From: a virus
DNA length: 26,535 nt
Strand: one strand, 5' to 3'
IMG/VR virus record: IMGVR_UViG_3300043446_002903
Coordinates: 1 to 26,535 of that record
The translations under genes and the position numbers were made by a program. Positions 17,284-26,169 of the stretch are shown piece after piece (the first letter of the stretch is position 1; each line of letters opens with the position of its first letter). The notes beneath the pieces were generated by a model. The model had not been told where the DNA came from, ran no database searches, and worked only from the letters and a program-made list of their open reading frames with translations.

Positions 17284-18244
17284 GATCTACCATATCTTTC
17301 ACCAAATCAATAAAGGATATTTCTGGTTTCCAGTTTAAGTAGGTTTGAGCTTTTGTTGGCATACCTCTTAAATATTCAACTTCTGCTGGTCGATATAGGT
17401 CAGGATCTATTTCAACATAATCTTTATAATTTAATCCTGCATATTCAAACGCTAATTCTAAAAAGTTTTGAACTGACCAAGTGTTACCTGTTGCCACAAC
17501 ATAATCAGTGGGACTAGATTGTTGTAGCATTAACCACATTGCTCTTACATAATCTTTTGCGTGTCCCCAGTCTCTATGGGCACTAAGATTACCTAGCTTT
17601 AATTTTTGTGATGTTTCGCCACTTTTAACTTGACCAATATACTTAGTAATTTTCCTAGTAACAAAGTTTTCTCCTCGTCGTGGACTTTCGTGATTAAACA
17701 ATATTCCACAGCAACCAAATATTCCATAGCCTGTTCTGTAAATTCGCACCATATTGTGAGCCGCCAATTTTGCTACTCCGTAAGGACTCTGTGGCAACAA
17801 AGCGGTGTCTTCGTCTTGATATTTTAGTCCTGTTAAATTAGTACTATAATTAAATCCAAACATTTCGCTAGTGCTTGCCTGATAAAATTTGGTACTAAAA
17901 GAATAATTTTTAATGGCCTCTAGGAGGTTCACAACTCCAATAGTATCAATTTCGAATGTTGTTGTTGGTTGTTTGAAGCTGGTTCCAACATGACTCTGAG
18001 CAGCCAGATTATAAACTTCATGAGGCTGGTGACGATGAATAACGTCGTTGCATCCGCTAGGATCTGTTAGATCAAATTCTTCCAAAATGAAATTTGGATT
18101 GTTTAGCAGATGGGAAACTCTGTCTAGGGTGTTTGTGCTACTGCGGCGATATAGGCCAATCACAGTATAATTTTTCTCTAAAAGTAAGTCGGCCAAATAA
18201 CTTCCGTCTTGTCCATTAACTCCTGTGATAATTGCTTTTTTCAT
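17264..18244 (-). CDS. gmd: GDP-mannose 4,6-dehydratase
   Basis: A 326-residue extended short-chain dehydrogenase that converts GDP-mannose to GDP-4-keto-6-deoxymannose, the precursor of GDP-fucose, rhamnose and perosamine. The Rossmann motif is ITGVNGQDGSYLA (Gly8, Gly11, Gly14), the NADP-type RR follows at 33-34, and the catalytic set is STSE (Thr125, Glu127) with SPYGVAK (Tyr155, Lys159). Substrate-loop signatures NHESPRRGENFVTRKI and GN-RDWGHAKDYV are also present. Length is close to the family norm. In phages, gmd may alter host surface sugars or supply a modified sugar. It has an AAAGGA ribosome-binding site and overlaps its neighbours by 4 and 20 bases, so it is an integral operon member. 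No other nucleotide-sugar gene is in the window. Confidence 0.95.
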   Translation of the reverse strand: MKKAIITGVNGQDGSYLADLLLEKNYTVIGLYRRSSTNTLDRVSHLLNNPNFILEEFDLTDPSGCNDVIHRHQPHEVYNLAAQSHVGTSFKQPTTTFEIDTIGVVNLLEAIKNYSFSTKFYQASTSEMFGFNYSTNLTGLKYQDEDTALLPQSPYGVAKLAAHNMVRIYRTGYGIFGCCGILFNHESPRRGENFVTRKITKYIGQVKSGETSQKLKLGNLSAHRDWGHAKDYVRAMWLMLQQSSPTDYVVATGNTWSVQNFLELAFEYAGLNYKDYVEIDPDLYRPAEVEYLRGMPTKAQTYLNWKPEISFIDLVKDMVDHDIQKL

Positions 18245-19056
18245 GATTCGTCCTTTGCTACGCTTTCTGGTGTGAAAAATGGTCGATCTACTGAATTGTC
18301 TGCATAATTATGATATTCTTCTAATTTATTTTTATATTTTTCGGTTGCTAATTTTAGTATTTCCATCTCTCTTCCTTCTCGTTCCCTAATATCTTCATCC
18401 TCTAACATGCGTATTAATCCTACCCAACTACTTTTACCATCCTCAATTCTTTTAATACGTTGTTCACGGGTGGCCTTAAGATCTTTACTTATTTTTTGTT
18501 GTTCGTTTAGAAGTTTTGTATATTCATTAGTATAATTAGCAATACTATTTCGCGCAAAGCTTAATTGAGTTTCCATATTGATCAGTTTCGCCGTGTCTCT
18601 TTGATCTTCTGGCTTGTCGTATTCTTTATCAACATCCTTTTGTAATTTTTCTGTCATGGTAATATGACGCTTTCGTTCCTTCATGCTTCGATTAATCAAA
18701 ATATCAATAGTAATAAATTGTTTAATTTGTAATTCTTCAGCAGGAAGAACATCTTCTCGGAACTGCTTAATTAATCCTATCCATGTATTTTCAAAGTATT
18801 CTAACTCTCCTGTTTCAGCATCAAACTGACGGGCGATTTCTGGCCAAAAGGTTTTACTATGTAGTTTATATCGTAGTGTTTCGTTATCTTTTTTCTCATC
18901 ACTGCTCAGGTATAAATTATTTTCATCAATGTATCTTTTGATGGGAGCTTCACTACGATTTAATGATTCTGCTATTTGTTCTATGGTTAGATCTTGAACA
19001 TTATCTCTTATGTATTGTTCTTCATCTAAACTTAGTTGTCCTCGTTTTTTGGGCAT
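18241..19056 (-). CDS. HTH/coiled-coil DNA-binding protein, candidate terminase small subunit
   Basis: A 271-residue protein. Residues 6-46 form a helix-turn-helix (LSLDEEQYIRDNVQ, LTIEQIAESLNRSEAPIKRYI). A conserved-looking middle follows (LHSKTFWPEIARQFDAETGELEYFENTWIGLIKQFREDVLPAEELQIKQFI, about 66-116). Long charged helices, probably coiled coil, run from 120 to 250. I recall very similar proteins in environmental phages, usually unnamed. HTH plus oligomerising helices, and a place a few genes before terL, fit a small terminase. A regulator is the alternative, since it directly follows a sigma factor. The start overlaps the sigma gene by 25 bases. Confidence 0.6.
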   Translation of the reverse strand: MPKKRGQLSLDEEQYIRDNVQDLTIEQIAESLNRSEAPIKRYIDENNLYLSSDEKKDNETLRYKLHSKTFWPEIARQFDAETGELEYFENTWIGLIKQFREDVLPAEELQIKQFITIDILINRSMKERKRHITMTEKLQKDVDKEYDKPEDQRDTAKLINMETQLSFARNSIANYTNEYTKLLNEQQKISKDLKATREQRIKRIEDGKSSWVGLIRMLEDEDIREREGREMEILKLATEKYKNKLEEYHNYADNSVDRPFFTPESVAKDES

Positions 19057-19703
19057 GAATAGTCTTTCATAAGAAGTGATATGTGGCTTTTTAATTTATC
19101 TAATAGTGGCTTGTTTACTTTAACTCCGTGCTTCAACTTTAAATAAATTTCTCTATATTCTGCTATAACAATATGATCATCTAAAAAGTTTATAATTTCT
19201 TGATTTTGCAGAAGAAGGTTGGTGTCGTATTTGTCCGGTATGGGGGTATCATTATTTTCATCGTCGTGATGAATACTTTTGGGTTTCATAATATTTTTTT
19301 TATTTTCGTTACGATTGCTCCAACTAGCATATAGTTCACAATCATTTTTATTAGAATATTGTAAACACTGACTTTTACTGGATGAGCAATGTTTATCATA
19401 CAAAGGACAACTCAAGCATGGTTTGTCGGGCCTTTGATAATTATTACGCTTATAATTAAATAAGCGATTTCTTACATGGGTCCAGAGAAAGTTTTCTAAT
19501 GGGCGCTTTTGATCATATTTCTGCAAGCCTTCTATAGCGAATATAGCAGCTTGTTGCTTCATATCATCAAAGTCATGGTAACCAAATTTAAATTTGTATG
19601 CTAATCTTTTGCTAATATTATCTAATACTTTTAAGAAATCTTCTTCTGTGACGCCATATTCTTCATATATATTATTATTCTTGTTTTTGTTTTTCTTCGT
19701 CAT
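19032..19703 (-). CDS. Phage sigma factor, region 2 with Cys-rich insert
   Basis: A 223-residue protein. Residues 30-90 (RLAYKFKFGYHDFDDMKQQAAIFAIEGLQKYDQKRPLENFLWTHVRNRLFNYKRN) match sigma-70 region 2: 2.1/2.2 core-binding helices ending in KYD, and a 2.3/2.4 helix FLWTHVRNRL that would melt and read a -10 element. This is followed by Cys96-x2-Cys99-x6-Cys106-x6-Cys113-x8-Cys122, a probable metal-binding knuckle, and a charged C-terminus without a clear region 4. This resembles T4 gp55-like late sigma factors. It likely directs host RNA polymerase to virion genes. The start overlaps the upstream 51-aa ORF by 29 bases, and the ribosome-binding site is weak. Confidence 0.8.
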   Translation of the reverse strand: MTKKNKNKNNNIYEEYGVTEEDFLKVLDNISKRLAYKFKFGYHDFDDMKQQAAIFAIEGLQKYDQKRPLENFLWTHVRNRLFNYKRNNYQRPDKPCLSCPLYDKHCSSSKSQCLQYSNKNDCELYASWSNRNENKKNIMKPKSIHHDDENNDTPIPDKYDTNLLLQNQEIINFLDDHIVIAEYREIYLKLKHGVKVNKPLLDKLKSHISLLMKDYSCPKNEDN

Positions 19704-20484: not shown

Positions 20485-20526
20485 GCTAAAACAAAAAAAC
20501 CCCCCTTTCGCCCCGCCGTTTTTGAC

Positions 20527-20553
20527 GTAACTCGTTACTGGACAAGGACTTAC
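20527..20553. repeat. 27-bp dyad, copy A
   Basis: GTAACTCGTT, seven bases, then AAGGACTTAC. The arms are inverted repeats (8 of 10). It is the first of seven dyads with the same 10-7-10 layout, preceded by a GC-rich stretch ending in TTTTT. Confidence 0.75.
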
Positions 20554-20589
20554 GACTAATATGCTGATCGACACGATCTTCTGTTTAAG

Positions 20590-20606
20590 AGCAAATGCTA
20601 TGCCAA
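20590..20606 (-). promoter_or_regulatory. Sigma-54-like box, leftward (A)
   Basis: On the minus strand TTGGCATAGCATTTGCT, with the exact ten bases between GG and GC required for a -24/-12 promoter. It points left into dyad A, where no gene starts. With the next box it forms a divergent pair or a long inverted repeat. Confidence 0.5.
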
Positions 20607-20619
20607 AGAAAAAATATGT

Positions 20620-20636
20620 TTGGCACGATATTTGCT
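20620..20636 (+). promoter_or_regulatory. Sigma-54-like promoter (A)
   Basis: TTGGCACGATATTTGCT matches the sigma-54 consensus TGGCACG-N4-TTGCT with GG and GC ten bases apart. It lies 80 bases from the dyad A centre and about 40 bases upstream of the sigma-70-type promoter for the gene at 20731. Confidence 0.7.
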
Positions 20637-20673
20637 GTACATAACCTTACGATATTGTAAGAAAAGATTTTTA

Positions 20674-20701
20674 TTGACTTCTAAAGTTTTTGTGGTATAA
20701 T
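20674..20701 (+). promoter_or_regulatory. Sigma-70-type early promoter, class I
   Basis: TTGACT (20674-20679), a 16-base spacer beginning TCTAAAGT, and TATAAT (20696-20701), then GTCGATATAAG. It serves the gene at 20731. Confidence 0.85.
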
Positions 20702-20730
20702 GTCGATATAAGAAGTAAGAGAGAAAGAAA

Positions 20731-20952
20731 ATGGAAAAGACGATTCACACTAACGACTTCATCAAGAGCCTTCCTAAGATTGTTCAGAAGAAGGTATGGA
20801 AGGTTACCGATAAGAATGGTACGGTTGTTCAGTACGTTGGTGCAACCGATAATCGTAAGAGTACCGCTCAAGAGTATATCAACGAGAAGTATCCTTCTCA
20901 AACTCTTACCCTTACCTTTTCGCATTTCAACGGATTGATTACGATTCGTTGA
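20731..20952 (+). CDS. Small early protein, 73 aa, unknown
   Basis: A 73-residue protein: MEKTIHTNDFIKSLPKIVQK followed by KVWKVTDKNGTVVQYVGATDNRKSTAQEYINEKYPSQTLTLTFSHFNGLITIR. It is moderately basic, with an alpha start and a beta-rich end, and without Cys or a membrane segment. The ATG is first behind a class I promoter. The leader is purine-rich (GAGAGAAAGAAA), a weak ribosome-binding site. Codons favour C-ending triplets, unlike the AT-rich virion genes. I recognise no family. A host-takeover role is inferred only from location. Confidence 0.75.
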   Translation: MEKTIHTNDFIKSLPKIVQKKVWKVTDKNGTVVQYVGATDNRKSTAQEYINEKYPSQTLTLTFSHFNGLITIR

Positions 20953-20970
20953 AAAATATTTTCTAAGGTA

Positions 20971-20999
20971 TTGACAGGCTAAAATCCGATAGGTATAAT
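20971..20999 (+). promoter_or_regulatory. Sigma-70-type early promoter, class III
   Basis: TTGACA (20971-20976), 17 bases including AATCCGATA, and TATAAT (20994-20999). Together with an AAAAATATTTTCT tract just upstream it repeats almost exactly at 21176-21222. Confidence 0.85.
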
Positions 21000-21026
21000 A
21001 GAGCGAAAGAAAGAAAAGGAAATCAA

Positions 21027-21176
21027 ATGACCATCCAAGTTCAGAATACGATCCGCCGCCTTGTTGCTCGCCATGGATATTCGGCCACCTTTGTTCAGCA
21101 TATGGGTGAGGGTATCTGCCTCTATAGCATCGGCGGGATCATGTACCGTATCCGTGGTGATGGTACGATTCTCTAA
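21027..21176 (+). CDS. Small early protein, 49 aa, unknown
   Basis: A 49-residue protein, MTIQVQNTIRRLVARHGYSA then TFVQHMGEGICLYSIGGIMYRIRGDGTIL. An N-terminal basic helix (NTIRRLVARHGYS) is followed by a beta-hairpin-like region. AAGGAAATCAA precedes the ATG, giving a good ribosome-binding site, and the class III promoter lies 27 bases upstream. It has its own promoter and no overlap with neighbours. No family recognised. Confidence 0.75.
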   Translation: MTIQVQNTIRRLVARHGYSATFVQHMGEGICLYSIGGIMYRIRGDGTIL

Positions 21177-21193
21177 AAAATATTTTCTGGGGA

Positions 21194-21222
21194 TTGACAC
21201 GGAAAAATCCGATAAGTATAAT
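21194..21222 (+). promoter_or_regulatory. Sigma-70-type early promoter, class III, for a leaderless gene
   Basis: TTGACA (21194-21199), 17 bases including AATCCGATA, and TATAAT (21217-21222). Only six bases separate the -10 from the ATG at 21229, so transcription should start at or next to the start codon. Confidence 0.8.
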
Positions 21223-21228
21223 AGCAGC

Positions 21229-21354
21229 ATGACACGAATCACCTGGACAACCGAAAGCCGATACCGATACAATCTCTTTGTTGACGGTATCAAGGTAGGA
21301 TACAATCTTTCTCTGGACGATTTCTTTACCCTTCTGAAAAGGTATGATATATGA
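21229..21354 (+). CDS. Small early protein, 41 aa, probably leaderless mRNA
   Basis: A 41-residue protein, MTRITWTTESRYRYNLFVDG then IKVGYNLSLDDFFTLLKRYDI. An in-frame extension back to 21061 would cross the previous gene and this gene's promoter, so the ATG at 21229 is the real start. There is no ribosome-binding site, because the -10 box ends six bases before the ATG. The fold may be a beta-hairpin plus one helix (SLDDFFTLLKRY). Its stop overlaps the next start as ATGA. No family recognised. Confidence 0.65.
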   Translation: MTRITWTTESRYRYNLFVDGIKVGYNLSLDDFFTLLKRYDI

Positions 21355-21539
21355 ATAGCCTCGACAAGATTCTCGCCGCTATGCGTTCTGGCAAGTATGG
21401 TAGCGTTATCGACCCAAAGGGTAACGCTCATGTAGGTATCATCAACGCTATCATGCGAGAAGATGGTAGCGGGAAAAACTGGATCGTGACACTGACCAAC
21501 CGTACAGTAAGTGAACGCGTGTTCATTCATGCCACCTGA
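21351..21539 (+). CDS. Small early protein, 62 aa, unknown
   Basis: A 62-residue protein: MNSLDKILAAMRSGKYGSVI followed by DPKGNAHVGIINAIMREDGSGKNWIVTLTNRTVSERVFIHAT. An N-terminal helix is followed by a beta-rich domain resembling a small SH3-like barrel in pattern (V--G-I-AI-REDGSGKNWIVTL). The start overlaps the previous stop as ATGA, so it is translationally coupled to the leaderless gene. No catalytic residues stand out. It is the last gene before control region B. Confidence 0.75.
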   Translation: MNSLDKILAAMRSGKYGSVIDPKGNAHVGIINAIMREDGSGKNWIVTLTNRTVSERVFIHAT

Positions 21540-21546
21540 GAGGGGG

Positions 21547-21566
21547 TATGGGGCTAATCCCTCATA
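21547..21566 (+). terminator. Possible terminator hairpin before control region B
   Basis: TATG-GGG pairs with CCC-CATA around CTAAT with one bulged base. A second small hairpin (ATCGG-cggg-CCGAT, 21575-21588) followed by TTTT lies just before dyad B. Either could end the upstream transcript. Neither is a textbook terminator. Confidence 0.4.
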
Positions 21567-21594
21567 GGTGGGGGATCGGCGGGCCGATTTTGAC

Positions 21595-21621
21595 GTAACT
21601 CATTACGGCACAACGACTTAG
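21595..21621. repeat. 27-bp dyad, copy B
   Basis: GTAACTCATT, seven bases (ACGGCAC), AACGACTTAG. It has the same layout as copies A and C to G and is followed by GGGCTAAT, as in copy E. Confidence 0.75.
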
Positions 21622-21669
21622 GGCTAATCACATGATCGTATCGAATAAGTGATTAAGAAAATAAAATAT

Positions 21670-21686
21670 TTGGCATGATATTTGCT
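21670..21686 (+). promoter_or_regulatory. Sigma-54-like promoter B1
   Basis: TTGGCATGATATTTGCT, GG and GC ten bases apart. The centre of dyad B lies 62 bases upstream. Confidence 0.6.
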
Positions 21687-21704
21687 ATAAGAATATTTAT
21701 TGTT

Positions 21705-21721
21705 TTGGCATAGCGTTTGCT
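21705..21721 (+). promoter_or_regulatory. Sigma-54-like promoter B2
   Basis: TTGGCATAGCGTTTGCT, GG and GC ten bases apart, 35 bases after B1. It lies 53 bases upstream of the sigma-70-type -35 box at 21758. Confidence 0.6.
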
Positions 21722-21757
21722 GTAGGAAACCTTACGATATTTTAAGAAAGATTTTTG

Positions 21758-21785
21758 TTGACTTCTAAAGTTGGCATGGTATAAT
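21758..21785 (+). promoter_or_regulatory. Sigma-70-type early promoter, class I
   Basis: TTGACT (21758-21763), a 16-base spacer beginning TCTAAAGT, and TATAAT (21780-21785), then GCCGATATAG. It drives the gene at 21814. Confidence 0.85.
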
Positions 21786-21813
21786 GCCGATATAGAAAGT
21801 AAGGAGAAAAGAA

Positions 21814-21942
21814 ATGACAACGCTCATCGTAATCGGAAACAAGTATAAGGTTTATCGTGACATGGAAAACGGAAAGCGTAGACTGCTCGGCACGTTCAAG
21901 AGCAGCGACGAGGCTATCCGATTCATGAACAATGTGCGATAA
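21814..21942 (+). CDS. Small early protein, 42 aa, paralogue of 23056-23196
   Basis: A 42-residue basic protein: MTTLIVIGNKYKVYRDMENG then KRRLLGTFKSSDEAIRFMNNVR. A strong AAGGAG lies in the leader. It aligns end to end with the 23056-23196 product (common core KYKVY--NGKR-LLG-F--S--AIRFMN), so the two are duplicates. The pattern, two or three strands followed by a helix, fits a miniature alpha/beta fold. I recognise no family outside the window. The stop is nine bases before the next -35 box. Confidence 0.8.
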   Translation: MTTLIVIGNKYKVYRDMENGKRRLLGTFKSSDEAIRFMNNVR

Positions 21943-21951
21943 ATATCCCTA

Positions 21952-21980
21952 TTGACGATTCAAGTTTCGATCTGTAGAAT
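21952..21980 (+). promoter_or_regulatory. Sigma-70-type early promoter, class I variant
   Basis: TTGACG (21952-21957), 17 bases, TAGAAT (21975-21980), then CCCGATATAG. It drives the acidic protein gene at 22015. Confidence 0.8.
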
Positions 21981-22014
21981 CCCGATATAGAAAGTAACCC
22001 AAAAGGAAAAGATC

Positions 22015-22218
22015 ATGAGCAACGACTTTGTTTACGATATGAGCGAAATCAACGAAGAGGAAATCATGAAGGGTTGGGAAGAAATGAACGAAGCGGACTA
22101 CATTCCGGGCCTTGATGATGGCGAAGGTTGGGATCCGATCATGGGTGACGATGACGAATGGATCGACACGGATGACGAATGGCTGGACGATTTTGCAGGT
22201 GAGGAGGATTTTGCCTGA
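22015..22218 (+). CDS. Strongly acidic small early protein, 67 aa
   Basis: A 67-residue protein with 15 Asp and 12 Glu against one Lys and no Arg. It starts MSNDFVYDMSEINEEEIMKG and ends in DDDEWIDTDDEWLDDFAGEEDFA, where acidic triplets alternate with Trp/Leu/Phe. AAAAGGAAAAGATC gives the ribosome-binding site. Such proteins in phages often mimic DNA or bind basic host factors (nucleases, RNA polymerase), as with T7 Ocr or other DNA mimics. There is no sequence similarity that I can claim, only composition. It stands alone before control region C. Confidence 0.75.
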   Translation: MSNDFVYDMSEINEEEIMKGWEEMNEADYIPGLDDGEGWDPIMGDDDEWIDTDDEWLDDFAGEEDFA

Positions 22219-22245
22219 CCACCCATTTGGAGGGGTACTATACTC

Positions 22246-22262
22246 TCCCCCATTGTGGGGGA
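22246..22262. other. GC-rich hairpin
   Basis: TCCCCCATTGTGGGGGA forms a perfect 7-bp stem with a 3-base loop after the acidic protein gene. It lacks a T-run, so it may act as a processing or stability hairpin rather than a terminator. Confidence 0.45.
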
Positions 22263-22265
22263 AAC

Positions 22266-22282
22266 AGCAAATGTTATGCCAA
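22266..22282 (-). promoter_or_regulatory. Sigma-54-like box, leftward (C1)
   Basis: On the minus strand TTGGCATAACATTTGCT with correct GG/GC spacing. A degenerate rightward copy (ATGGCATAGGATTCGCG, 22289-22305) lies six bases away, repeating the divergent pair of region A. Confidence 0.45.
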
Positions 22283-22319
22283 ATGCGAATGGCATAGGAT
22301 TCGCGGGGCCGATTTTGAC

Positions 22320-22346
22320 ATAACTCCTTATGGCACAACGACTTAC
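22320..22346. repeat. 27-bp dyad, copy C
   Basis: ATAACTCCTT, seven bases (ATGGCAC), AACGACTTAC. It is preceded by GGGGCCGATTTTG, as copy B is by GGGCCGATTTTG. Confidence 0.75.
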
Positions 22347-22373
22347 GAACAGTATCACCTAATCCTGACAGCT

Positions 22374-22390
22374 AGCAAATCCCGTGCCAA
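22374..22390 (-). promoter_or_regulatory. Sigma-54-like box, leftward (C2)
   Basis: On the minus strand TTGGCACGGGATTTGCT, one of the best sigma-54 matches in the window. It points left into dyad C, and no minus-strand gene follows. Confidence 0.5.
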
Positions 22391-22433
22391 AACACCATCT
22401 GCCTAAAAAATGTCATCCCCGCAGTTGGAGGGT

Positions 22434-22514
22434 GCCGCAAAATGCTACACTATGCTGTTTTTCTCGGGAAAATCGCGTAGCAAAATGCTACACCACTGTA
22501 GCAAAATGCAACGC
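22434..22514. repeat. Three GTAGCAAAATGCTAC-type elements
   Basis: The middle copy (22477-22491) is a perfect inverted repeat, GTAGCA-AAA-TGCTAC. The first (22434-22450) keeps the right arm, and the third (22498-22514) keeps the left arm. Starts are 43 and 21 bases apart, close to whole helical turns, as for a cooperatively bound protein. They lie about 80-160 bases upstream of the sigma-54-like promoter at 22595. Confidence 0.65.
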
Positions 22515-22545
22515 TCAAAAACTGGGCCCACAAAATAGGCATGAC

Positions 22546-22572
22546 GTAAACCCTTGTGGCATAAGGACTTAG
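22546..22572. repeat. 27-bp dyad, copy D
   Basis: GTAAACCCTT, seven bases (GTGGCAT), AAGGACTTAG. The centre lies 36 bases upstream of the sigma-54-like promoter at 22595. Confidence 0.75.
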
Positions 22573-22594
22573 GAAAACCAAAGATTTTTTGAGT

Positions 22595-22611
22595 TTGGCA
22601 CACCGATTGCT
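22595..22611 (+). promoter_or_regulatory. Sigma-54-like promoter (D), sole promoter seen for 22645
   Basis: TTGGCACACCGATTGCT with GG and GC ten bases apart. The start would be near 22622, with AGAGAG and the ATG at 22645 following. No sigma-70-type promoter is visible between here and the gene, making this the clearest functional test case. Confidence 0.7.
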
Positions 22612-22644
22612 CTTATATATGGTATAAGAAAGAGAGAGTTGAAA

Positions 22645-22812
22645 ATGGTTTATATCGAAGATATTCAGAATGAGTTGGTTAGGTTGTATGGTGAAAATGG
22701 TAAGACTTTCGAGATTGTGCCGATTGGGTCGGCTTTTCTGGTTGGTCGATCTGTATATGATGCAGTAGAGATTAGTGGTTGGGAAGATTTTGATCTTCTG
22801 GAAACTTTTTGA
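22645..22812 (+). CDS. Small early protein, 55 aa, behind sigma-54-like promoter
   Basis: A 55-residue acidic protein: MVYIEDIQNELVRLYGENGK then TFEIVPIGSAFLVGRSVYDAVEISGWEDFDLLETF. It has an N-terminal helix, two likely strands, and an acidic aromatic C-terminus. The leader AAGAAAGAGAGAGTTGAAA is a modest ribosome-binding site. It and the next gene (21 bases apart) form a short operon whose only visible promoter is the sigma-54-like box at 22595. No family recognised. Confidence 0.7.
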   Translation: MVYIEDIQNELVRLYGENGKTFEIVPIGSAFLVGRSVYDAVEISGWEDFDLLETF

Positions 22813-22832
22813 GGATAGGAAAGGTAGATAAG

Positions 22833-22991
22833 ATGAGAAAGTTTAGTTATTACCGTGGTTCAGATGATGGATACGATTATTCCCGTGATAATCGGGATGG
22901 ATACGTTGACGAGTTTTTGAAGTCTCTCGACCGTGATCGTGAGATGAAAGAAAGAGAAGAAAAAGCGAAAAACGAAAAAGAAAAATCGTAA
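22833..22991 (+). CDS. Small charged early protein, 52 aa
   Basis: A 52-residue hydrophilic protein from the ATG at 22833, eight bases after AGGAAAGG. A TTG at 22809 would extend it but overlaps the previous gene without a ribosome-binding site. The first half (RKFSYYRGSDDGYDYSRDNRDGYVDE) is Tyr/Asp/Arg-rich. The second half (FLKSLDRDREMKEREEKAKNEKEKS) is an almost pure Lys/Glu/Arg helix, probably a single amphipathic or coiled helix. Likely cotranscribed with the gene before it. No family recognised. Confidence 0.7.
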   Translation: MRKFSYYRGSDDGYDYSRDNRDGYVDEFLKSLDRDREMKEREEKAKNEKEKS

Positions 22992-23000
22992 GTTTTTTGC

Positions 23001-23028
23001 TTGCATCTTCAAGATTAGACGCTAGAAT
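23001..23028 (+). promoter_or_regulatory. Sigma-70-type early promoter, class I variant
   Basis: TTGCAT (23001-23006), a 16-base spacer, TAGAAT (23023-23028), then GTCGATAGATAAG. It drives the gene at 23056. Confidence 0.7.
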
Positions 23029-23055
23029 GTCGATAGATAAGAAAGAAAGTTAGAT

Positions 23056-23196
23056 ATGAAAACTGTGCTGATCATGGTCGGGAAGAAATATAAGGTTTAC
23101 TCGGAAAACAATGGAAAGCGTAAACTGCTCGGAGTGTTCAACACTTCGCAAGATGCTATCCGGTTTATGAATACTTTTTCCGCTTGTGCTGCCTGA
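23056..23196 (+). CDS. Small early protein, 46 aa, paralogue of 21814-21942
   Basis: A 46-residue basic protein: MKTVLIMVGKKYKVYSENNG then KRKLLGVFNTSQDAIRFMNTFSACAA. It shares KYKVY, NGKR-LLG-F and AIRFMN with the 42-residue product at 21814, and adds a short FSACAA tail. The leader is AAGAAAGAAAGTTAGAT with only a weak ribosome-binding site. It is followed after 42 bases by the 23239 gene without an intervening promoter, so the two are probably cotranscribed. Confidence 0.8.
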   Translation: MKTVLIMVGKKYKVYSENNGKRKLLGVFNTSQDAIRFMNTFSACAA

Positions 23197-23238
23197 GAGA
23201 ATCTGATAGACTCCACACTCACCCATAGGAATAGAAAA

Positions 23239-23562
23239 ATGAAAAGCCCGATTCTTGCCGATTTTCAGCGTGGTATTCTGGAGTGGTTTGAAGGTATCGC
23301 CATTCCGCATCAGCCTAGCGTAGCCGATGGGGTATATACCCCCATTCGGAGTGAGAAGGTTATGAAGTTCAATCGGAAGGCTCTCCGCAAGATTGGCAAG
23401 CGGAAGGTGGAAAAGGCCGATCCCCGACTTGTGGGGGGTGAAGATAAGATGATTGTTAAGGTCGGCAAGCCCGGTAGTCGAGAGAGGGTAGAGGCCCTGC
23501 GTAGTCAGTACGAGGCAGTGGCCGCTTGCGGTGAGGAAGTATCCCCCTTCGCGGAGGGGTAG
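23239..23562 (+). CDS. Small basic early protein, 107 aa, unknown
   Basis: A 107-residue protein: MKSPILADFQRGILEWFEGI, then a linker, then KVMKFNRKALRKIGKRKVEKADPRLVGGEDKMIVKVGKPGSRERVEALRSQYEAVAACGEE. The central KFNRKALRKIGKRKVEK helix (about residues 43-59) is strongly basic and could bind nucleic acid. AGGAATAG precedes the ATG. Stop is TAG, showing TAG is a normal stop here. It uses a G/C-rich codon style. It ends just before a pair of direct repeats and a terminator-like hairpin. No family recognised. Confidence 0.7.
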   Translation: MKSPILADFQRGILEWFEGIAIPHQPSVADGVYTPIRSEKVMKFNRKALRKIGKRKVEKADPRLVGGEDKMIVKVGKPGSRERVEALRSQYEAVAACGEEVSPFAEG

Positions 23563-23609
23563 ACTTCTGTACACTACCTCTTGGTGGGGGTAAACTTTTG
23601 TACACTCCC
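23559..23609. repeat. Two direct repeats, 31-bp period
   Basis: GTAGACTTCTGTACACTACC (23559-23578) and GTAAACTTTTGTACACTCCC (23590-23609) match at 16 of 20 positions. Each contains TGTACA and short flanking arms that can pair (GGTAG/CTACC). The first overlaps the 23239 gene's stop codon. Confidence 0.6.
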
Positions 23610-23627
23610 CTTTAGGGGGGTTGTTGT
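23604..23627 (+). terminator. Probable terminator
   Basis: ACTCCCC and GGGGGGT pair (one G-T wobble) around TTTA (23604-23621), followed by TGTTGT. It ends the transcript of the 23056-23239 pair and precedes control region E. Confidence 0.6.
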
Positions 23628-23657
23628 CAAAATGGCAGCCGGCGGGCCGAAATCGTC

Positions 23658-23684
23658 GTAAGTGCTTGTGGCATATAGACTTAG
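23658..23684. repeat. 27-bp dyad, copy E
   Basis: GTAAGTGCTT, seven bases (GTGGCAT), ATAGACTTAG, followed by GGGCTAATGAGGACATCGTA. Together with what follows, it is a recognisable second copy of control region B. Confidence 0.75.
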
Positions 23685-23734
23685 GGCTAATGAGGACATC
23701 GTATCGAAAAGGTGTTTAAGGAAATAAAATATCT

Positions 23735-23751
23735 TTGGCATAGTATTTGCT
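23735..23751 (+). promoter_or_regulatory. Sigma-54-like promoter (E)
   Basis: TTGGCATAGTATTTGCT, GG and GC ten bases apart, 64 bases after the dyad E centre and 42 bases before the next sigma-70-type -35. Confidence 0.6.
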
Positions 23752-23776
23752 GTGTAGAAAATTTTTTATTTTGTTG

Positions 23777-23804
23777 TTGACTTCTAAAGTATGACCTGTA
23801 AAAT
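23777..23804 (+). promoter_or_regulatory. Sigma-70-type early promoter, class I
   Basis: TTGACT (23777-23782), a 16-base spacer beginning TCTAAAGT, TAAAAT (23799-23804), then GTCGATATAA. It drives the gene at 23832. Confidence 0.85.
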
Positions 23805-23831
23805 GTCGATATAAAGGAAAAGGAAAAACAA

Positions 23832-23951
23832 ATGCTTGGACTGGTGTTTTTAATGATTCTGGGCTATATGATGTATGTCGAAATCGTCACCTTTTTTGAG
23901 AATCGACGAGATACGAAAAGAATCCGCGAGTATTTTCAGAATCGTGGTTGA
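23832..23951 (+). CDS. Single-pass membrane mini-protein, 39 aa
   Basis: A 39-residue protein: MLGLVFLMILGYMMYVEIVT then FFENRRDTKRIREYFQNRG. Residues 2-21 are a transmembrane segment, followed by a basic cytoplasmic-type tail (positive-inside suggests N-out, C-in). AAGGAAAAGG is a good ribosome-binding site. The TGA stop lies inside the TTGACA -35 box of the next promoter. Membrane mini-proteins like this in phage early regions may act in exclusion or lysis control. No family recognised. Confidence 0.7.
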   Translation: MLGLVFLMILGYMMYVEIVTFFENRRDTKRIREYFQNRG

Positions 23952-23975
23952 CAAGTAAAGTTTAGCCTGTAAGAT
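23948..23975 (+). promoter_or_regulatory. Sigma-70-type early promoter, class I, containing the previous stop
   Basis: TTGACA (23948-23953), a 16-base spacer beginning AGTAAAGT, TAAGAT (23970-23975), then GTCGATATAAGG. The -35 includes the TGA stop of the previous gene. It is near identical to the promoter at 24510. Confidence 0.85.
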
Positions 23976-23995
23976 GTCGATATAAGGTAAATAAG

Positions 23996-24199
23996 ATGGA
24001 AATCGGACAACAAATCACCGCTACCTATAACGATGGGCGAATCTTTTCTGGTACAATAGTTCAAATCGAAATCGGATCAAATGACGATGTGGTATATGGT
24101 GATGGTTCAATCATGCCTAATCGAACCATGATTAGGATCAAAAAAGAAAATGGAAACTATGCCAGTTTCTATCTTGACAAGTGTTTTTCAGTCGGGTAG
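23996..24199 (+). CDS. Small beta-rich early protein, 67 aa
   Basis: A 67-residue protein: MEIGQQITATYNDGRIFSGT then IVQIEIGSNDDVVYGDGSIMPNRTMIRIKKENGNYASFYLDKCFSVG. The strand pattern, with G-Q-ITATYNDGRIFSGTIVQIE at the start, suggests a small SH3-like barrel. Its last eight codons contain the -35 of the next promoter, and its TAG stop is the first half of the next TAGAAT -10 box. No family recognised. The ribosome-binding site is moderate (AAGG). Confidence 0.75.
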   Translation: MEIGQQITATYNDGRIFSGTIVQIEIGSNDDVVYGDGSIMPNRTMIRIKKENGNYASFYLDKCFSVG

Positions 24200-24202
24200 A
24201 AT
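24174..24202 (+). promoter_or_regulatory. Sigma-70-type early promoter inside a gene end
   Basis: TTGACA (24174-24179) lies in the coding sequence of the previous gene. The 17-base spacer leads to TAGAAT (24197-24202), whose TAG is that gene's stop. CCCGATATAAG follows. Confidence 0.85.
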
Positions 24203-24225
24203 CCCGATATAAGAAAGAGAAAACA

Positions 24226-24321
24226 ATGTATAACGACTTTGCTAGCAACCTTATCGTGTGTTTTTTGCTCGGCTGTTGGGCATACCTTTTTATCTATATT
24301 CCTCTTTATTTTTGGTGCTAA
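24226..24321 (+). CDS. Membrane mini-protein, 31 aa
   Basis: A 31-residue hydrophobic peptide: MYNDFASNLIVCFLLGCWAY then LFIYIPLYFWC. Residues 8-30 form one transmembrane span. Cys residues are at 12, 17 and 31. The leader has AAGAAAGAGAAAAC, a weak ribosome-binding site. The stop TAA is followed at once by the next ATG (TAAATG), so the two are coupled. No family recognised. Confidence 0.6.
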   Translation: MYNDFASNLIVCFLLGCWAYLFIYIPLYFWC

Positions 24322-24513
24322 ATGATTACCAACGACATCACCAACGTAGTGATCATGACCGCTAAGACTCTTTCGGGTACTAAGGTTGTGGTTAACAGTT
24401 TCGACGTTATCATCGAAAACGGAAAGCCGCTGATTATGTTTTTCGTTAAGGATGAAAATGGCCAGTTCGGACTTTTCAATCAGAACGAACTCACCGATTA
24501 TGTGGAGAGTTGA
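24322..24513 (+). CDS. Small early protein, 63 aa, unknown
   Basis: A 63-residue protein: MITNDITNVVIMTAKTLSGT then KVVVNSFDVIIENGKPLIMFFVKDENGQFGLFNQNELTDYVES. Alternating hydrophobic strands suggest a small beta-sheet domain ending in an acidic helix. It begins directly after the previous stop, with no independent ribosome-binding site, so it depends on translational coupling. Its TGA stop lies inside the TTGACA -35 box of the next promoter. No family recognised. Confidence 0.72.
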   Translation: MITNDITNVVIMTAKTLSGTKVVVNSFDVIIENGKPLIMFFVKDENGQFGLFNQNELTDYVES

Positions 24514-24537
24514 CAAGTAAAGTTTAGCCTGTAAGAT
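24510..24537 (+). promoter_or_regulatory. Sigma-70-type early promoter, class I, containing the previous stop
   Basis: TTGACA (24510-24515), a 16-base spacer beginning AGTAAAGT, TAAGAT (24532-24537), then GTCGATATAAGG. The first 40 bases repeat the 23948 promoter almost without change. Confidence 0.85.
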
Positions 24538-24557
24538 GTCGATATAAGGAAAAGAAA

Positions 24558-24653
24558 ATGTATCGTGCTGGTTTCATCTTTTTCGTGTTCATTCTGCCGA
24601 TTCTGAACATTGTGTTTTGCCTTGGATTTCTGGCTGGAAAGGCTGCCCAATGA
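24558..24653 (+). CDS. Membrane mini-protein, 31 aa
   Basis: A 31-residue peptide: MYRAGFIFFVFILPILNIVF then CLGFLAGKAAQ. One transmembrane span covers residues 5-26. AAGGAAAAGAAA precedes the ATG. Its TGA stop overlaps the next ATG as ATGA. Its partner at 24650 is also a membrane peptide, so the two could assemble together, as some two-component spanin, holin or exclusion pairs do. That is only a suggestion. Confidence 0.65.
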   Translation: MYRAGFIFFVFILPILNIVFCLGFLAGKAAQ

Positions 24654-24763
24654 ATCGTGATTTGGCATACGTTGGTTTACTGGTCGCTGGTAGCGTTGTG
24701 CTTTCCACGATCATGCTCTACAGTTTTTTGGTCTATAGCATCATCACGGGAGATTGGTCATGA
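24650..24763 (+). CDS. Membrane mini-protein, 37 aa
   Basis: A 37-residue peptide: MNRDLAYVGLLVAGSVVLST then IMLYSFLVYSIITGDWS. A transmembrane span runs from about residue 7 to 32. Both ends overlap neighbours as ATGA, making a tight three-gene string with 24558 and 24760. No family recognised. Its short length and coupling leave translation likely but unproven. Confidence 0.65.
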   Translation: MNRDLAYVGLLVAGSVVLSTIMLYSFLVYSIITGDWS

Positions 24764-25068
24764 CTCACGCCGAAGCAGTTAAGATGGTTCGTGGTAAGCG
24801 TAATAAGGATAGCCGAAAGATTGGTAATAATACCTACGCGGAAATCCTTAACGATAATACTGTAGGCATTAAGTTGCACAGTACCTACGTTGTAAAGATT
24901 CGGGACGATGGTACTTATACTCTCAATAGCGGTGGCTGGCAAACTGCTACCACTAAAGATAGGATTAACCAGTATAGTCCCGTGAGGGTTTATCAACGCA
25001 AGTTCGAATGGTTTGTTACTATTAACGGTAAAGAGTATCCATTCATTGATGGTATGGTGGTATCATGA
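24760..25068 (+). CDS. Conserved phage protein, GNNTY / LNSGGW family, 102 aa
   Basis: A 102-residue protein. I use the ATG at 24760, seven bases after GGAG. A TTG at 24754 has no support. Signatures are KMVRGKRNKDSRKIGNNTYAE (about residues 8-28), IKLHSTYVVKIRDDGTYTLNSGGWQTATTKDRINQY (about 37-72) and a C-terminal beta segment (KFEWFVTINGKEYPFIDGM). I recognise this as a widespread small phage family, also in actinobacteriophages ('GNNTY...LH-T-VV---DG---LNSGGW-T-TTK-RIN'), with no known function. It is likely expressed with the two membrane peptides before it. Confidence 0.85.
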   Translation: MTHAEAVKMVRGKRNKDSRKIGNNTYAEILNDNTVGIKLHSTYVVKIRDDGTYTLNSGGWQTATTKDRINQYSPVRVYQRKFEWFVTINGKEYPFIDGMVVS

Positions 25069-25121
25069 ATATAACGATTTATGATTTGCTGAAATATTCT
25101 ACTAAACGGTGGCCGAACTAA
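25065..25121 (+). CDS. Possible 18-aa peptide
   Basis: An 18-residue frame, MNITIYDLLKYSTKRWPN, starts inside the previous stop as ATGA and ends 14 bases before the next ATG. The overlap matches others in this string. There is no further support, so it may be only a spacer or a coupling leader. Confidence 0.3.
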   Translation: MNITIYDLLKYSTKRWPN

Positions 25122-25135
25122 AGAAAGGGCCAAGG

Positions 25136-25243
25136 ATGGTCGATATTAACTGGGTACAAATAGGTGTGGGATTTATTGCTGGCATTATTGGTTCTTACCT
25201 TGTTTCTGACCTTGTTTTTCCAGTAAATAGTAATAAGGAATAG
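25136..25243 (+). CDS. Membrane mini-protein, 35 aa
   Basis: A 35-residue peptide: MVDINWVQIGVGFIAGIIGS then YLVSDLVFPVNSNKE. A Gly-rich transmembrane span covers about residues 8-29 (GxxxG pattern, good for helix packing). AAAGGGCCAAGG lies upstream. Stop is TAG. It is followed five bases later by another membrane peptide. No family recognised. Confidence 0.6.
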   Translation: MVDINWVQIGVGFIAGIIGSYLVSDLVFPVNSNKE

Positions 25244-25247
25244 TAAC

Positions 25248-25325
25248 ATGACTATTATGGACAAGTGTACACTGGTGGTGTCGTTTGTGGTAGGGTGTGT
25301 AGCCGCTTGGGTTGTGAACAGTTGA
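25248..25325 (+). CDS. Membrane mini-protein, 25 aa
   Basis: A 25-residue peptide: MTIMDKCTLVVSFVVGCVAA then WVVNS. It is almost entirely one transmembrane span (residues 8-23) with Cys7 and Cys17. AAGGAATAGTAAC provides a ribosome-binding site. Its stop precedes dyad F by a base or two. Very short, so moderate confidence. Confidence 0.5.
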   Translation: MTIMDKCTLVVSFVVGCVAAWVVNS

Positions 25326-25326
25326 C

Positions 25327-25353
25327 CTAAGTGCTTGTGGCGTAAAGAGTTAC
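25327..25353. repeat. 27-bp dyad, copy F
   Basis: CTAAGTGCTT, seven bases (GTGGCGT), AAAGAGTTAC. It starts immediately after the stop of the 25248 gene. Unlike other copies, the GGCGGGCCGCG-T8 stretch follows it instead of preceding it. Confidence 0.7.
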
Positions 25354-25380
25354 GACAAACTCGGCGGGCCGCGATTTTTT

Positions 25381-25397
25381 TTGGCACGATATTTGCT
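25381..25397 (+). promoter_or_regulatory. Sigma-54-like promoter (F)
   Basis: TTGGCACGATATTTGCT, identical to the copy at 20620. The dyad F centre is 41 bases upstream. An opposite box faces it four bases downstream. Confidence 0.6.
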
Positions 25398-25401
25398 ACA
25401 T

Positions 25402-25418
25402 AGCAAGCGCCGTGCCAA
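25402..25418 (-). promoter_or_regulatory. Sigma-54-like box, leftward (F)
   Basis: On the minus strand TTGGCACGGCGCTTGCT, correct GG/GC spacing. It faces the rightward box, so the two make a 38-bp inverted repeat. As convergent promoters they would collide, which leaves a hairpin or protein-site reading open. Confidence 0.45.
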
Positions 25419-25473
25419 ACGACTGCCCGAAACCTTACGACATTGCAACGAAAAAATATTTGTGGTGGTGGGC

Positions 25474-25501
25474 TTGACAGGCCGATATTAGACTGTAGAA
25501 T
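25474..25501 (+). promoter_or_regulatory. Sigma-70-type early promoter, class II
   Basis: TTGACA (25474-25479), a 16-base spacer with CCGATA, TAGAAT (25496-25501), then CAGCGTATCACC. It closely resembles the promoter at 26170. Confidence 0.8.
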
Positions 25502-25526
25502 CAGCGTATCACCCGGAGAGAAAAAG

Positions 25527-25709
25527 ATGATCAACTCTTTTGACGATGTGAATCGGATTCTGGCGGAACTGGCCGAGATGGGCACGATTGAACCGATGGT
25601 CGAGCCGATTGATGAGAACGATTGTCACCCAATGGACTATGCGGACGTTACTGGGTTGTGGGATGAAATGTATCCCGAACCGCTTGACGCAAACGATTTT
25701 GTGTGGTAA
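25527..25709 (+). CDS. Acidic small early protein, 60 aa
   Basis: A 60-residue protein with nine Asp and seven Glu against one Arg and no Lys: MINSFDDVNRILAELAEMGT then IEPMVEPIDENDCHPMDYADVTGLWDEMYPEPLDANDFVW. I use the ATG at 25527 after GGAG. Longer versions would cross the promoter. An N-terminal helix is followed by a Pro/Asp/Glu-rich extended part. Its end carries the next gene's -35, and its TAA stop is the first half of that promoter's -10. No family recognised. It is a possible DNA mimic. Confidence 0.72.
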   Translation: MINSFDDVNRILAELAEMGTIEPMVEPIDENDCHPMDYADVTGLWDEMYPEPLDANDFVW

Positions 25710-25712
25710 AGT
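25684..25712 (+). promoter_or_regulatory. Sigma-70-type promoter inside a gene end
   Basis: TTGACG (25684-25689) in the coding end of the previous gene, a 17-base spacer, TAAAGT (25707-25712) whose TAA is that gene's stop. AAGGAG and the ATG at 25731 follow. Confidence 0.65.
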
Positions 25713-25730
25713 CTAACTAAGGAGAAAAAC

Positions 25731-26057
25731 ATGAGTCACCCTGATCCCCTGTTCGATCCCGATAACTCTTATGAGGATGATAACGTGGACTATAACTACG
25801 ACGATCACGACGATTTCTTCCGCGATGATCTGGATGAGTTGCGTGGTCGTGAAGTCGAGTATGACAGCCCCGATTCCGACCCGGATGGTGATGGCGACTA
25901 CGATCCCGACTATGATGTTTGGGATAGCATGGACGGAGATCACGACAGTGCCATGACCAGTTGCGGCTGGGGAACTGACGAGGACTACGGTTACTATGGC
26001 GATGATGATCGTGAGGATTTCCATAGCGATGACGGCTACGGAAGTTACGACGATTGA
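25731..26057 (+). CDS. Hyperacidic protein, 108 aa
   Basis: A 108-residue protein with 36 Asp and six Glu against four Arg and no Lys. Aromatic residues (Tyr, Trp, Phe) are spaced through DYNYDDHDDFF, DGDYDPDYDVWDS and DEDYGYYGDDD. It has no recognisable domain and is probably disordered or a DNA mimic. Asp-Xaa-Asp runs could also bind calcium. AAGGAG is five to six bases from the ATG, the strongest ribosome-binding site in this region. The large open frames on the opposite strand (His/Arg-rich) are artefacts of GAY codon repetition. Function unknown. An anti-nuclease or polymerase-binding role is speculation. Confidence 0.8.
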   Translation: MSHPDPLFDPDNSYEDDNVDYNYDDHDDFFRDDLDELRGREVEYDSPDSDPDGDGDYDPDYDVWDSMDGDHDSAMTSCGWGTDEDYGYYGDDDREDFHSDDGYGSYDD

Positions 26058-26064
26058 GCCTAAA

Positions 26065-26094
26065 GCCTTGATGCATAACACTTTGCGTCAAGGC
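26065..26094 (+). terminator. Terminator-like hairpin
   Basis: GCCTTGATGC and GCGTCAAGGC form a 10-bp stem with one G-T pair around a 10-base loop, eight bases after the hyperacidic gene. A GC-rich tract, not a T-run, follows, so termination is uncertain. Confidence 0.45.
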
Positions 26095-26112
26095 CGGCCG
26101 CCCCCGTTCAAC

Positions 26113-26139
26113 GTAAACTCTTATCTGCTAATGACTTAT
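26113..26139. repeat. 27-bp dyad, copy G
   Basis: GTAAACTCTT, seven bases (ATCTGCT), AATGACTTAT. No sigma-54-like box follows this copy. The next promoter is sigma-70-type at 26170. Confidence 0.65.
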
Positions 26140-26169
26140 ACCAAAAAAGATTTTTTCAAGAAAAACCTA

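Follow-up and report, generated by a model that had tools for sequence, protein, structure and literature searches.

The triple element of the window, i.e. the whole 26,535-nucleotide stretch of DNA analysed here, is very probably the upstream activating sequence (UAS) of a sigma-54-dependent phage promoter, served by a host activator and carried in a portable cassette that is exchanged with sigma-70 promoters. Protein binding, DNA looping, the host origin of the activator and the timing of expression are what we infer from sequence comparison.

The source record of the window is a 26.5-kb uncultured virus whose terminase, portal and head genes lie on the minus strand, while the region from about 20 to 26.5 kb contains small plus-strand ORFs, many of them preceded by TTGACA-like/TATAAT promoters. 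Upon rescanning, the positions of the three repeats and both distances between them agreed with the first-pass annotation (Table 1). Site 2, GTAGCA-AAA-TGCTAC, is an inverted repeat with 6-bp arms. The scan of the window with GTAGCAAAATGCTAC gave five matches for a shuffle mean of 0.86, and five were reached in 0 of 100 shuffles. Outside 22434-22512, the only match at ≤3 mismatches is at 24936 (3 mismatches), and with up to 2 mismatches allowed the earlier claim that the window has no further copy holds.

Table 1. Coordinates of the array and its neighbouring features in the window.
Feature	Position	Strand	Remarks
Enhancer (UAS) site 1, GCCGCAAAATGCTAC	22434..22448	+	2 mismatches to GTAGCAAAATGCTAC; first site also in relatives
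Enhancer (UAS) site 2, GTAGCAAAATGCTAC	22477..22491	+	0 mismatches; perfect palindrome; 43 bp from site 1
Enhancer (UAS) site 3, GTAGCAAAATGCAAC	22498..22512	+	1 mismatch; 21 bp from site 2
Putative sigma-54 -24/-12 promoter TTGGCACACCGATTGCT	22595..22611	+	exact consensus; TTGGCAC and -12 GC kept in relatives' cassettes
Initial transcribed region and leader with purine-rich AAGAAAGAGAGAG	22612..22644	+	conserved in relatives
Controlled gene (predicted), 55 aa (MVYIEDIQ...)	22645..22812	+	ATG 50 bp past the -24 T; homologues L296, L297
Divergent sigma-54-like site, far side of array	22375..22390	-	several relatives with a site at the matching place
D1 palindrome copy ('dyad D'), between enhancer and promoter	22542-22577		palindrome at 22545..22573; different sequence here in most relatives
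D1 palindrome copy beyond the divergent site	22319..22347		one of about seven copies

The sigma-54-like site at 22595, which had been described as a lone promoter downstream of the array and of a "dyad D", matches the consensus exactly, with the -24 GG and the -12 GC 10 bp apart (TGGCAC-N5-TTGC) as in sigma-54 promoters, but it is not alone: ten exact TTGGCAYN5TTGC sites are found from 20591 to 25418 on both strands, about 0.03 being expected under a first-order random model. The other sigma-54-like sites of the region, which the cassette does not account for, occupy both strands and also lie next to D1 palindromes (see below), with some paired in inverted orientation at a distance of about 21 bp or preceding a sigma-70 promoter by about 50 bp; because of these placements, not all sigma-54-like sites are necessarily promoters. 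No enhancer class was recognised beside most of the ten. The inverted pairs of the window include 20591-/20620+ and 25381+/25403-, several of the ten sites precede a strong sigma-70 promoter by about 50 bp, and those on the minus strand would transcribe antisense to the small genes.

Dyad D itself appears to be one copy of D1, a 36-bp palindromic repeat with a consensus near CGTAAGTCCTTATGGCATAAGGACTTACG, present in about seven copies between gene units at 20523-26144 of the window. In relatives (L225, L173 and L168), D1 often occurs as pairs 53 bp apart near sigma-54-like sites; a second enhancer, an operator or a recombination site are candidate functions. Three other contigs (L128 at 1622-1806 of the minus strand, L154 and L150) carry tandem GTTGCAAAATGCAAC-like palindromes with a 21-22 bp period and no sigma-54 site in the stretch checked.

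The conservation of the array was then examined in viral contigs. Among the matches listed for a single exact 15-mer many were probably due to chance, and for this reason a two-site pattern (GCAAAATGCWAC then GCAAAATGC) was adopted. It hit 52 stretches of viral contigs, and the match lengths were concentrated around 50-53 bases, corresponding to a spacing of 41-44 bp. The aligned contigs present one cassette composed of three sites, a spacer, TTTGGCAC-N6-TGC, TATATA-rich DNA, AAGAAAGAGAGAG and ATG. When the array was combined with the sigma-54 -24/-12 element TTGGCAC-N6-TGC, 59 viral-contig stretches were obtained, marine-like contigs included, for a chance expectation that we estimate at about one or fewer. 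The virus of the window and that of one record, IMGVR_UViG_3300046804_002424 (L095/L161/L295), are probably one and the same, and this record is not an independent occurrence; more generally, the relatives share ancestry and the conservation counts are not independent events.

From the 59 stretches, 47 distinct arrays of two or more sites were drawn. Their sites are mostly spaced by 42-44 + 20-21, 33 + 19 or 12 + 20 bp, and the distance from the last site to the -24 element is 75-79, 85-87 or 96-101 bp in nearly all of them. Enhancer sites roughly 80-200 bp upstream, in helical phase, are what a sigma-54 promoter has, and these distance clusters are about 10-11 bp apart (Rayleigh R of 0.65 at 10.5 bp, a descriptive statistic for which neighbouring periods score nearly as high). 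In the window, site 3 is 97 bp from the -24 T versus 86 bp in most relatives, and this 11-bp difference would correspond to one helical turn. The array-site consensus extends to TGTWGCAAAATGCWACA, a TGT-N11-ACA motif whose GCAAAATGC centre is fixed. Exactly 50 bp past the -24 T is the commonest position of the start codon, and an ATG stands at +50 in about 20 different cassettes. The search of relatives for conserved spacing that the first-pass annotation had proposed finds array, spacing and promoter kept in combination across numerous phage contigs.

Different phages have different genes behind the cassette, the number of families being judged by eye. A frequent one encodes a small cysteine-rich protein with a CCG...CxxC(L/G)EHCE motif (L031, L173, L274, L275, L282 and others, in freshwater-like and marine-like phages). 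As palindromes repeated at helical spacing within a large intergenic gap, the repeats could also be replication-origin iterons, or a recombination or partition site, with an incidental promoter nearby. This is hardly credible, considering that copies precede different genes, sometimes twice per genome, with the same promoter and leader at set distances, and that the repeats are absent where the gene has a sigma-70 promoter. Replication iterons were dropped, the copies tracking promoter and leader.

The window also encodes, at 19032-19703, a protein with a weak sigma-factor (region 2) match, a relative of which is independently carried by several of the two-site contigs. Within 18241-19703 this sigma-factor-like protein adjoins a weakly T5-D5-like transcription regulator, and the two are possibly a late-transcription pair.

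Which sigma factor would read the promoter was addressed in the relatives. Using TTTGGCAY alone as anchor, GC is present at N10 from the GG in 127 of 209 distinct sites (61%), against 1-28 of 209 (0-13%) at each of the other gaps tested with the same anchor; GC at N10 after GG reads as the sigma-54 rule. Among 52 arrays gathered without any promoter requirement, the element, with its GC at N10, lies at 79-101 bp in at least 36. Most of the remaining ones come from contigs unlike this cassette, and two further arrays have the site farther downstream, behind a terminator-like hairpin. The backward-read control pattern had 0 matches in 38 records, in which the true sites are mostly confined to one few-kilobase stretch per genome.

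Palindromic arrays are also typical of repressor operators, and TTGGCA-17-TATGGT at 22595 scores 9/12 as a sigma-70 promoter. The array could then be the operator of a phage DNA-binding protein (a repressor, an anti-repressor or the HTH/AT-hook-like 19909 protein), transcription starting from a sigma-70 promoter that overlaps 22595. We consider this quite unlikely. The cassettes do not share a -10 hexamer at 17 bp (e.g. AGAGGT, TCTAGC), whereas they do keep GG-N10-GC, on which ground a sigma-70 promoter at 22595 was dropped, and the array is missing from homologous genes that have a genuine sigma-70 promoter (10-12/12). As for the 19909 protein, proposed earlier as a binder of the array, nothing implicates it; a weak HNH-family match is all that it shows, and this candidate was abandoned.

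The exchange of promoters was followed on 26 homologues from two families, that of the 55-aa gene of the window and that of MEKVMSVNGF.... Six of the 26 have the array, and in all six a sigma-54 site lies at -50 and the best sigma-70 promoter does not exceed 9/12, while 17 of the 20 homologues without array have a sigma-70 promoter scoring 10-12/12 (Fisher p about 1e-4, relatedness being ignored). For the window gene, the L296 homologue presents the array and the sigma-54 site; the 80%-identical L297 homologue presents TTGACT-16-TATAAT and no array, and its -50 sigma-54 site is also gone. Loss of the array with promoter and gene kept, which the first-pass annotation had named as the outcome to look for in close relatives, was not seen. 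The array and its sigma-54 site thus appear to swap naturally with a sigma-70 promoter on homologous genes.

In L302/L303, identical in the stretch read, there is no array, but the sigma-54 site is kept at -51 with a different upstream repeat, TGCCAnnnTGACA. This second enhancer class, which we take to resemble a NorR-like GTCA-N3-TGAC site, also occurs upstream of sigma-54 promoters in L202, L323 and L334 and as a tandem run in L326; L270 and L333 combine it with the GCAAAATGC class.

Taken together, the joint conservation of array, spacing and promoter, the GG-N10-GC rule and the replacement of sigma-70 promoters support, from sequence, the earlier reading of the element as the binding site of a cooperatively bound regulator or enhancer-binding activator. 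Known sigma-54 activators contain the PF00158 AAA+ domain. No match to this domain (Sigma54_activat) was found in 26 phage records, including contigs of 140-238 kb, nor to the RpoN DNA-binding domain (PF04552) in 23 phage records, these records being fragments in which absence is not proof. Host proteins are therefore the likely suppliers, and the activator of the cassette is probably the host's.

In 398 Pseudomonadota and 326 Bacteroidota genomes, the enhancer with TTGGCAY was at chance level, no more frequent than the backward-read control. The two-site enhancer gave 28 loci across all GTDB species, mostly coding repeats or unrelated, and no genome with a clear matching regulon. Three or four of them are suggestive. 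In a Halodesulfovibrio MAG, an NtrC-type gene (PF00158 + HTH_8) is followed by TTGCAAAATGCAAC repeats and then a TTTTGGCACG site; a Desulfobulbaceae locus has repeats upstream of a histidine kinase and NtrC-type pair, and a Tabrizicola locus has repeats with TTGGCACGAAACTTGC. These three loci are suggestive leads only. The terminase search in 338 Verrucomicrobiota and 343 Planctomycetota genomes was empty, a comparison with 50,697 deposited phages at the DNA and protein levels gave no relative useful for naming the host, the match of marine-like relatives to cyanophages is confined to the GDP-mannose dehydratase gene, and Rfam gave nothing above chance.

The failure to find a host with a matching regulon among the Pseudomonadota and Bacteroidota genomes searched would also fit a phage-encoded activator not recognised as a bEBP, i.e. 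a novel protein binding the array and opening the host sigma-54 polymerase, and phages often supply their own activators. Such a protein is nevertheless very unlikely given that PF00158 was missing from the 26 records, the large contigs among them, and that the second enhancer classes of relatives are consistent with phages having adapted to different activators.

With a host activator, the approximately two- and four-turn spacings would place the sites on one DNA face and help the assembly of an AAA+ hexamer, the three palindromes loading three activator dimers by analogy with NorR. Through DNA looping, the activator would remodel the host sigma-54 RNA polymerase parked on TTGGCACACCGATTGCT, and the remodelled polymerase would switch on the small gene at 22645. 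The portable cassette placed before different small genes in related phages would consist of enhancer, promoter and leader. On a broader proposal we are evenly divided: that this widespread freshwater and marine phage lineage has a sigma-54 regulon of exchangeable cassettes (TGTWGCAAAATGCWACA, TGCCAnnnTGACA, sometimes both) replacing sigma-70 promoters at accessory small genes and wiring accessory-gene expression to particular host bEBPs and, through them, to the physiological state of the host.

To our knowledge, phages nearly always depend on the housekeeping sigma factor or one of their own. A portable cassette in dozens of uncultured phages would, if true, mean that part of the infection programme depends on a host signalling protein. 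The swaps between sigma-70 promoter and enhancer cassette on homologous genes offer a ready-made comparison for asking why, and the enhancer sequence a handle on the host, which would be a bacterium with a bEBP that recognises TGTWGCAAAATGCWACA. In a literature search lacking most subscription journals and all preprints, no paper on a conserved, swappable phage enhancer cassette was found, which is weak evidence of novelty.

The use of host sigma-54 by a phage is called "rare" but "not unprecedented" in a passage of PMC5053324, which cites Ceyssens et al. 2008 for the sigma-54 promoters of Pseudomonas phage YuA. The YuA record (NC_010116) has three annotated promoters with the -24/-12 consensus, and YuA resembles the present phages in using host sigma-54. 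However, its promoters are in the structural-gene region, while cassettes of the window type stand before small genes in one genome region and do not belong with YuA-type promoters of structural (late) genes. They also have a conserved multi-site enhancer common to many phages, no array of which was found in the YuA record, where there is one isolated GCAAAATGC core.

In the NorR system, the sigma-54 promoter is preceded by three enhancer sites that serve as a scaffold on which the activator assembles into a higher-order oligomer, most probably a hexamer (PMC2941729). The window likewise has three palindromic sites upstream of a sigma-54-type promoter, as in norVW (PMC2941729, PMC1274295). The NorR core is GT-N7-AC (PMC1274295), whereas the phage sites are TGT-N11-ACA with the fixed GCAAAATGC centre, a GT-N11-AC core that sets them apart from a NorR-type enhancer. 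In Desulfovibrio vulgaris, bEBP motif groups are reported whose TGT and ACA half sites are separated by 9, 11 or 12 bp (PMC4641369). They belong to cellular regulons, of which no specific regulator matched the phage sites, but the phage consensus TGTWGCAAAATGCWACA has the same TGT-N11-ACA architecture.
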